From NCBI GenBank assembly GCA_029261475.1, contig JAJDBG010000022.1, positions 1 to 44,406 on the forward strand: a stretch of 44,406 bases of DNA. The letters are read 5' to 3'. Shown here piece by piece: positions 26,011-28,667 of this stretch (position 1 is the stretch's first letter; the number at the start of each line of letters is the position of its first letter). Under the pieces are notes generated by a model. That model saw only the letters and a program-made list of their open reading frames with translations. It did not search any database and was not told the DNA's origin. The position numbers and the translations under genes are program-made. The stretch is from Nitrospinaceae bacterium. GTDB lineage: Bacteria; Nitrospinota; Nitrospinia; Nitrospinales; VA-1.

Positions 26011-26388
26011 ATGCTTGCTAAATTGAATGAAGCAAAAAATCAAAAGGGTTTTACCTTGATCGAGCTGTTGATCGTTATTGCAATCATCGGTATTTTGGCC
26101 GCCGTTGCAATTCCCCAGTTCAGTCAGTACAAAAGACGAGCCTACCATTCGGATGCTAAAGCGAATCTGCACAATCTTTACCTTGCCTGCAAAGCGTATT
26201 GGGGAGATAACTCAGGTTCCGATGCTTGTTCCTTGACGGAAGCAAAGAAATCTACGTTTGGATATCAGCAGTCCACAAACGTGGATGTAACGATTGGTAC
26301 GACAAACGAGTCTGGTTTTGCCGCAACGTCTACGCATGACAGTGGAAACACTGTTTTCTCCATCGACTCTGCTGGTAACATCACTTAA
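26011..26388 (+). CDS. pilA: Type IV major pilin (PilA-like) prepilin
   Basis: 125 residues: a 13-residue positively charged leader, the prepilin peptidase site KG|FTLIELL, the canonical hydrophobic helix ([19 protein letters not shown]5 present), and a small C-terminal part of about 60 residues. The mature protein has C47 and C60, a possible disulfide. Mature residues F1, F24, Y27 and Y32 fall at the same positions as in Geobacter PilA, followed by Y44, Y50 and W51. Strong ribosome site. The gene ends with a very clear terminator, giving a monocistronic, probably abundant, mRNA. The main role is type IV pilus assembly (motility, attachment, DNA uptake). Confidence 0.93.
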
Positions 26389-26409
26389 TTTAGCACTTTT
26401 TGTGAAATG

Positions 26410-26448
26410 CCCCGTCCGGAGTATTCTCCGGGCGGGGTCTTTTTTCTT
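26410..26448 (+). terminator. Intrinsic terminator of the pilin gene
   Basis: The arms 26410-26421 and 26426-26437 form a 12-base-pair GC-rich stem with one G-U pair and a TATT loop, followed by TCTTTTTTCTT (26438-26448). The T run ends exactly where the next possible ATG (26449) begins. Confidence 0.93.
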
Positions 26449-28667
26449 ATGCTTCGAGAAAAAATCCAATTCCCTCCACCGTTTTTTTTTTAGTTCTTGT
26501 TCCTTGGTTCGCCTATCTGGCGACAATTTCCCCCACTGTAGGATATAAAGATTCACCCGAATTCATTGACACTGCATTTACCTTAGGTATCAGCCATCCC
26601 GCTGGATTTCCTACATATAACTTGCTTGCCAAGCTGGCGACTTTTTTACCTGTTGGTTCTATAGCGTTCAAGGTCAATTTATTTTCGGCCCTATTGGCCT
26701 GTTTCAGCTTGGGAATTCTTTATCTCACCTCGATTAAAATTCAATGCCTTGTTTTGGGGCGAAAAGGGGAGGCCTGTTACCGATGGATTGCGCTTATCCC
26801 GGCTGGTTTTTTGGCTTTTTGCCTACCTTTTTGGTCCAATGCGATCAAGGCTGAGGTTTATACTTTAAACGCTTTTTTTGTTTGTCTGATCATTTATCTT
26901 CTCTTGGCATGGAAGGAAAATAATGATGCTCGTTGCCTTTTTGCTGCCGCTTTCATTTATGGATTGTCAGCGGGAAACCACGCGACGGTTGGGCTTTTTC
27001 TTCCCGCAATCATCGCCCTTTATTGTTTTTGGAAACGTGAAGGCGCACCGGGTTGTCTTTCTCTTTGTACGGTATTTTTTCTGATTGGGTTTTCGGTTTA
27101 TGCTTACTTGCCCTTGCGTTCTTTCACCGAGCCATCTTTTGACTGGGGCAATCCAGAAACACTTGAAGGTTTCTTGTATCAGGTAACGGATCGTAAGGAT
27201 GCGAATGTGCATTTCTCCATTTTCAAAGGGGGAGATCCTTCCAAAGTGGAGGAGGCATCGAACGCCAGCAATGGTTTGCTCTTCATTGCTATTGGGATTT
27301 GGGAGACGGCGCGTTTTTTCATTCTTGATGTCTGGAATCGTTTGTCGCCTGTGGTTGCCATTGGAATGTTTGGTGGCGGATGGATTTGCCTGCGTAAAAA
27401 TCTGCCGCTCTTCATTTTTTTTACATGGCTCATTGGTATCAACGCGGTCTTTTTTAAAGATTGGGGTGGCGAGAGTTTCTTTCCTGCCTATGTTGCGGTC
27501 TGCTTATTGACATCTGTTTTTTTTGGTTTTTTATTTGCCGAAACCTTGGGTAGGGAAGCGGAGGAAAAAAAATCTTCCCGTCTATCCAATGAAAGTCGCT
27601 TTGGGGATTTGGATTGGAAGGGCTTGGGGAGTGTTGCTATGTTTCTATGGATTGTGACTGTAGGCATCATGCATTTTCCCAGGGTGGATCGTTCTGAATC
27701 CTATTCTGGCGAGACCCTATTGAAGCCGGTGTTTTTATCTTTGGAAAATGATGCGGTATTTCTGGCGGGTATTTCCTGGTTTCAATTTTTTTATCACAAT
27801 GATGTGGGACGTTTGCGGGACGATGTCGTTGGTGTTCGCGTGTGGGATTTTCTCGAATCAAATCCACCGTCATGGATCACCCCGCTTCGATTTCCAGAAC
27901 TTGTGCTTCCCGATCCGGGAATCCATCGTTTCGATTCACGGCAAAAATCCTGGAATTATCTTCTGGCGTTCATTCAGCTCAATCATAAAACTCGCCCGAT
28001 ATTGACCGATCAAAATATCGAACTTTTTGATCAATTTCCAATGGCGAGTCATTTCGTTCCCTATAAAAACGTACTGCTAAAATATTCGGACAGGAATGCG
28101 GGGGAGGGGCGGGAGAACGGCAATTTGAAAGCTTTTGAAGAATTTGAAAAGATCGTTCAAGTGGAAGCTTCGCAAGCAGGGATTTTACTGCACAAAAACT
28201 GGATCAATAAAATTGGTTATTACGTTCCTTCCTTTGCGGAATACTTCAAATCGCGCAATCGTTTTGAAGAGGAGGCTCAATCCTTGCGCTTGATGTATGA
28301 ATTCCTTGGGCAACGTGGAGCTGTTTGGCGGAAAAAAATGATAGCAAATCTCATTGCCAGAGGACAGGTAGATCAAGCGGATTCTCATTTGAAAATATTA
28401 AAACATGATTTTCCGCAGAGCTATGAAACACTCATGGCAGATGGATGGATGCAGGCTGTGAGGGGAAGGCCGGACTCCGCATTGACGGCTTTCCGGCAAG
28501 CTTCGGTAGTACAGCCTTGGAATTTTGAGCCACATCTGGAGGCGGCAAAAACTCTCCTTTCATTGGATCGCAAGTCGAGCGAAGCAAAAAAAGAACTGGA
28601 ACATGCCAGAGAAAAATCATCAAATTTAAAAGAACTGACTCGGGTTTTAGACGTGAAGAACGCTTAA
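26449..28667 (+). CDS. DUF2723-like membrane protein with TPR tail; N-terminus split by a frameshift in a T10 run
   Basis: The intact frame runs to 28667 and has no ATG, GTG or TTG before TTG 26622. Translating upstream in that frame still gives conserved family sequence (GYKDSPEFIDTAFTLGISHP, near 26541-26600), so TTG 26622 cannot be the true start. An ATG at 26449 opens MLREKIQFPPPFFF and stops at TAG 26491, just after a run of ten T (26482-26491). One extra T would join it to FLVLVPWFAYLATISPTVG in the downstream frame. So this is a sequencing error, a slippage-dependent gene or a recent mutation. The product has about ten helices, a soluble middle and a C-terminal TPR-like part (about 28350-28560). 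GT-C-like; function unknown. No Shine-Dalgarno is seen. Confidence 0.75.

Follow-up and report, generated by a model that had tools for sequence, protein, structure and literature searches.

The membrane glycosyltransferase gene that follows a type IV pilin gene in the window, i.e. the analysed stretch of 44,406 nucleotides from a Nitrospinaceae draft genome (154 contigs, 87% complete, nearest relatives Nitrospinota), is split close to its start by a run of ten T. The gene probably carries a programmed slippage site at this position, and transcriptional slippage on runs of at least nine T is the best explanation for what is conserved around it. Two further glycosyltransferase genes of the same genome are interrupted in the same manner. 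Judging from these sequences, production of several sugar-transfer enzymes in Nitrospinota and related bacteria seems to require slippage of the polymerase or, less likely, of the ribosome.

All features of the split gene lie on the forward strand. The leader (26449-26493) begins with ATG, comprises 11 codons up to the run, reads FFF in the run of exactly ten T (26482-26491; the proposed slippage site) and ends at TAG 26491-26493, which uses the last T of the run (MLREKIQFPPPFFF*). The leader frame contains another ATG further upstream (26407), where the terminator hairpin of the preceding pilin gene has its base. The body (26484-28667) is read in a different frame that is open back to TGA 26403-26405 and lacks its own start codon, as neither ATG, GTG nor TTG is present between this TGA and TTG 26622. 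It encodes a TMEM260-like protein with a C-terminal TPR-like part, and its match to PF11028, the TMEM260-like family formerly called DUF2723 (E 2.4e-35, 122 bits versus a gathering cutoff of 24), marks it as a membrane glycosyltransferase with putative protein O-mannosyltransferase activity. The domain match starts at model position 1 upstream of the TTG at 26622-26624 that was listed as start of the open reading frame. Initiation at this TTG is ruled out by the loss of conserved family sequence, namely Pfam model positions 1-24 together with the invariant residues D20, E23, F24 and H35-P40 (alignment A1). Addition of one T joins both parts into MLREKIQFPPPFFFLVLVPWFAYLATISPTVGYKDSPEF, and the leader is then likely the true N-terminus. 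A preliminary description of this DNA had already proposed a start split at T10 behind pilA, family sequence encoded ahead of 26622 and a sensible N-terminus upon addition of one T; all three proposals hold.

A TMEM260-like protein is found in about 30 of the 64 genomes of the order, and the named carriers comprise Nitrospinae CG11, the Nitrospina sp. SI-series, the Nitrospinaceae OFTM-series and assemblies from the Gulf of Mexico and from groundwater. In 18 species (the window and 17 other Nitrospinota) an ATG and a short leader precede a T9 or T10 run that leads into the wrong frame, and one additional T mends the gene. The ATG is located 21-34 nt ahead of the run, no start is conserved in the body frame, and the distance from the end of the run to a conserved Tyr is 22 nt (21 in one species). 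The comparison of T counts that the preliminary description had suggested has thus revealed the same offset throughout, and the unrelated N-terminus at the equivalent of 26622 which it had considered is seen in no relative. In a nineteenth genome (G008, locus L026) the run is T8 and another shift is needed; because a second frame break is present near an A run this locus may be an assembly error or a decaying copy. Ten orthologs have no run, and where the contig includes the 5' end (nine of them) the start codon is always in frame. With their N-termini (IRPVFFLI) the joined leader agrees best of the three frames in 16 of 17 cases, as exemplified by MNVFNIRPVFFLI versus MPTAHQIRPVFFLI. On the tree the presence of the run needs three label changes, e.g., one gain and two losses.

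The codons of the run are conserved too. Among 95 fully conserved degenerate codon columns in the alignment of 18 species only two show an invariant codon, and both are the TTT (Phe) of the run. The third codon of the run region is TTA in 17 of 18 species, even in a genome where TTA accounts for 1 of the 100 Leu codons of the gene. Elsewhere in these genes none of 37 FF[L/F] tripeptides is coded as TTT TTT TT[A/T], and their remaining 37.6 kb (17 species) contain 31 T7 and 13 T8 runs with none of nine or more. These counts are not independent draws because the species are related, and the argument is carried by the controls inside the same alignments.

The T9+ and A9+ runs of the genome were screened from stretches around the sites, and among the 100 of 119 hits listed there are two further conserved breaks, both mended by one T, in a GT4 glycosyltransferase gene and in a gene for a PMT_2-type mannosyltransferase (a membrane glycosyltransferase). 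Other candidates were discarded, since L208 (A9) represents two adjacent genes and L214 a separate short gene with nearest relatives of 102-109 codons, and L116, L119, L189 and L207 were unconvincing when judged by eye only. The common theme of the three broken genes is, as predicted from their families, glycosyl transfer.

The GT4 run (G000:C24:16021-16029 = L132:16021-16029, minus strand; relatives L140-L168 and L246-L258) interrupts the reading ...DILHSHNYRNFPTDAGFF|FARLKRRPFVLNTHGSLLGYKKY and splits the Pfam domain Glyco_transf_4: positions 94-167 match after the run, and the part before it (positions 3-84) gives a weak match that stays under the gathering score. The run measures T9-T11 and occurs in 42 species, which belong to five families (f1, f2, f4, f5 and f6). 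Judged by flanking motif or DNA, 39 of these need one T, one lies at a contig edge and two are in frame at the DNA level (G045 with T11 and G039 with T10). For L152, L153, L252 and L256 a crude open-frame call gave "in-frame" since the frame stays open longer; the flanking motif or DNA assigned them to the group that needs one T. The gene of G038 has no run and is in frame. Across the 42 species 36 degenerate columns are conserved, and the codon itself is invariant only in three of them, the TTT codons formed by the run. The third of these Phe codons is TTT in 42 of 42, compared with 273 TTT to 202 TTC for the other Phe codons, and the codon before the run (GGT, GCT, TCT or AGT for Gly, Ala or Ser) has T as its last base in all 42. 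In the PMT_2-type gene the T9 run (G000:C41:4833-4841 = L180:1234-1242, minus strand; relatives L225-L228 and L234) calls for an additional T in six species (G000, G001, G002, G038, G041 and G045), and other homologs, which lack the run, are in frame. A run of at least nine T is found at the junction of two frames in all three genes (18, 42 and 6 species), with the T8 of G008 as the exception.

In other bacteria, runs of nine A or T are established slippage sites (PMC1088944, PMC5009743), and that RNA polymerase slips at the sites described here, and with what efficiency, we infer from the sequences. A faithful transcript would give rise to the leader peptide only (14 residues in the window, 10-22 across species), which terminates at the run or shortly behind it. 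Slippage of RNA polymerase on T9/T10 with insertion of one extra U (or another net change equal to +1 modulo 3) would place leader and body in one frame, and the full TMEM260-like enzyme could be translated from the slipped transcript. The same device would act in the GT4 and the PMT_2-type gene, the GT4 site being kept class-wide. By the criterion of PMC1088944, i.e. avoidance of such runs in coding sequence, slippage on T9 is not assured because T9 is not clearly avoided: in a 368 kb coding sample of the genome six T9 runs were seen versus 6.8 expected from synonymous shuffles, and several T9 runs of the genome sit inside apparently normal genes. The other long runs fall below expectation in this sample, with 0 versus 1.7 for T10+, 9 versus 17 for A9 and 1 versus 7.2 for A10+.

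The main competing explanation yields an identical protein from a faithful mRNA, namely programmed -1 ribosomal frameshifting on U_UUU_UUU with a stop immediately behind, and we consider it unlikely but worth serious attention. All three genes have the heptamer in their leader frame, the leader-frame stop (TAA or TAG using the last T) directly follows the run in 14 of the 17 listed TMEM260-like cases mended by one T, and every sequence feature except run length would suit a shifting ribosome too. We favour the polymerase because the runs are held at nine or more, whereas a heptamer needs seven (and the third TTT of GT4 is invariant), because no stimulatory structure is found downstream (mean z of -0.33 for the TMEM260-like and -0.10 for the GT4 sites in pseudoknot-free folding), and because U_UUU_UUU is a much weaker -1 shift site than A_AAA_AAG in E. 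coli (PMC5009743).

T runs of such length are prone to mutation, and phase variation is typical of glycosyltransferase genes. A run length that shifts in the DNA of a population and switches the gene on and off would account for the two GT4 genes in frame (G045 and G039), but random phases would put about a third of the sequences in each frame and the same off state is encountered in 18 of 18 T9/T10 sequences of the TMEM260-like gene and in 39 of 41 judged GT4 genes. Moreover, run length is altered by substitution with the offset unchanged, as in the window (CCG-T10-A) versus its sister (CCG-G-T9-A), and phase variation appears very improbable. Still less can be said for a body-frame start at a non-standard codon or for re-initiation after the leader stop. 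The body frame of the window offers ATT 26469 with an equivalent in the sister, and terminating ribosomes could restart, but in L013, L014 and L024 the body frame has few codons ahead of the run, none of which is ATG, GTG or TTG. No non-standard start candidate is common to the species, and such a start fails to explain the GT4 gene, whose domain is cut mid-way by the run, as well as the invariant TTT codons. A homopolymer error of sequencing or assembly, or a degenerating pseudogene, would be conceivable for a draft genome; conservation across species rules both out for practical purposes. The preliminary description had listed a base-calling error and a real mutation besides slippage. Error and isolated mutation are rejected because the identical arrangement with its identical offset recurs in 17 other species from independent projects. 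Furthermore, the single-contig (closed) genome G002 shows both the GT4 and the PMT_2-type break, the body frames are intact over about 700 codons, and open frames surround other T9/A9 runs of the window genome. The remaining option of that description, slippage on the T run, is strongly supported by the conserved run, offset and codons.

The position of the gene behind a pilin gene is conserved as well. A pilA-like type IV pilin gene of 125 amino acids (26011-26388, forward strand; Pfam N_methyl, E=2e-11) is located directly upstream, and of 29 in-group loci 28 have a pilin ahead of the TMEM260-like gene, adjacent to it except in L021; at the 29th locus the contig edge is reached before the pilin position. 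The intrinsic terminator hairpin behind pilA (26409-26438, forward strand) is strong, with 13 pairs, a U tract at 26440-26445 and a fold z of -5.25. Because of this strong terminator and because a simple scan found no sigma-70-like promoter for the glycosyltransferase gene, read-through from the pilA terminator into this gene is plausible. In a small second AU hairpin (26440-26464; TTTTTTCT / AGAAAAAA) leader sequence pairs with the U tract of the terminator, and ATG 26449 is found in its loop or at the edge of its stem; a role in read-through or start control is possible. The slippage site would throttle the amount of enzyme, and the pilin terminator presumably lowers expression further. With read-through and polymerase slippage in series the enzyme would be scarce relative to pilin. 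A role of the enzyme in glycosylating the pilin is conjecture, based on gene position and protein family.

Programmed transcriptional slippage, in which the polymerase adds or drops bases, is known from Thermus dnaX (A9), Shigella mxiE/spa13 and Citrobacter tssM (PMC5009743, PMC1088944, PMC4256274), and the Nitrospinota sites resemble these in having a run of about nine A or T that opens a second frame. In contrast with dnaX, mxiE and tssM the run of the window gene lies within the first ~15 codons, which would make the entire protein dependent on slippage; such runs are present in three glycosyltransferase genes of a single genome, and one of the sites has persisted across families of a class. 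A frame change near the start that is needed for the whole protein and is widely kept with losses is also typical of prfB (PMC12421855), but there the ribosome shifts under autoregulation and no such signal is seen at the Nitrospinota sites. Slippage in IS elements (PMC1088944, PMC6211511) likewise combines an A/T run with a conserved ORF arrangement, whereas the Nitrospinota genes are cellular and non-mobile. With phase-variable glycosyltransferases they share a homopolymer in a gene of surface glycosylation, but their offset is fixed across species instead of varying. A search of the literature outside subscription journals found no report on these genes or this group; no paper links Nitrospina with transcriptional slippage or programmed frameshifting, and DUF2723 is named in none. 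The mechanism is of an already known kind, and its conserved use in several genes of one bacterial class appears to be undescribed in the literature covered.

Ordinary cellular genes rarely have deeply conserved slippage sites, and the published cases we found come for the most part from IS elements and viruses, from a single replication gene and from secretion systems. If true, three sites in one genome, one of which extends over five or more families, would rank with the broadest examples, and the proposal is directly testable. In all genomes with the runs, gene finders would wrongly call these enzymes truncated or treat their genes as pseudogenes. The Nitrospinota carriers are nitrite-oxidising bacteria and their relatives. 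Rather speculatively, slippage of RNA polymerase on T9 runs might in these organisms be a shared control of a set of cell-surface glycosyltransferases, by which polymerase fidelity or growth state would set surface and pilin glycosylation together.
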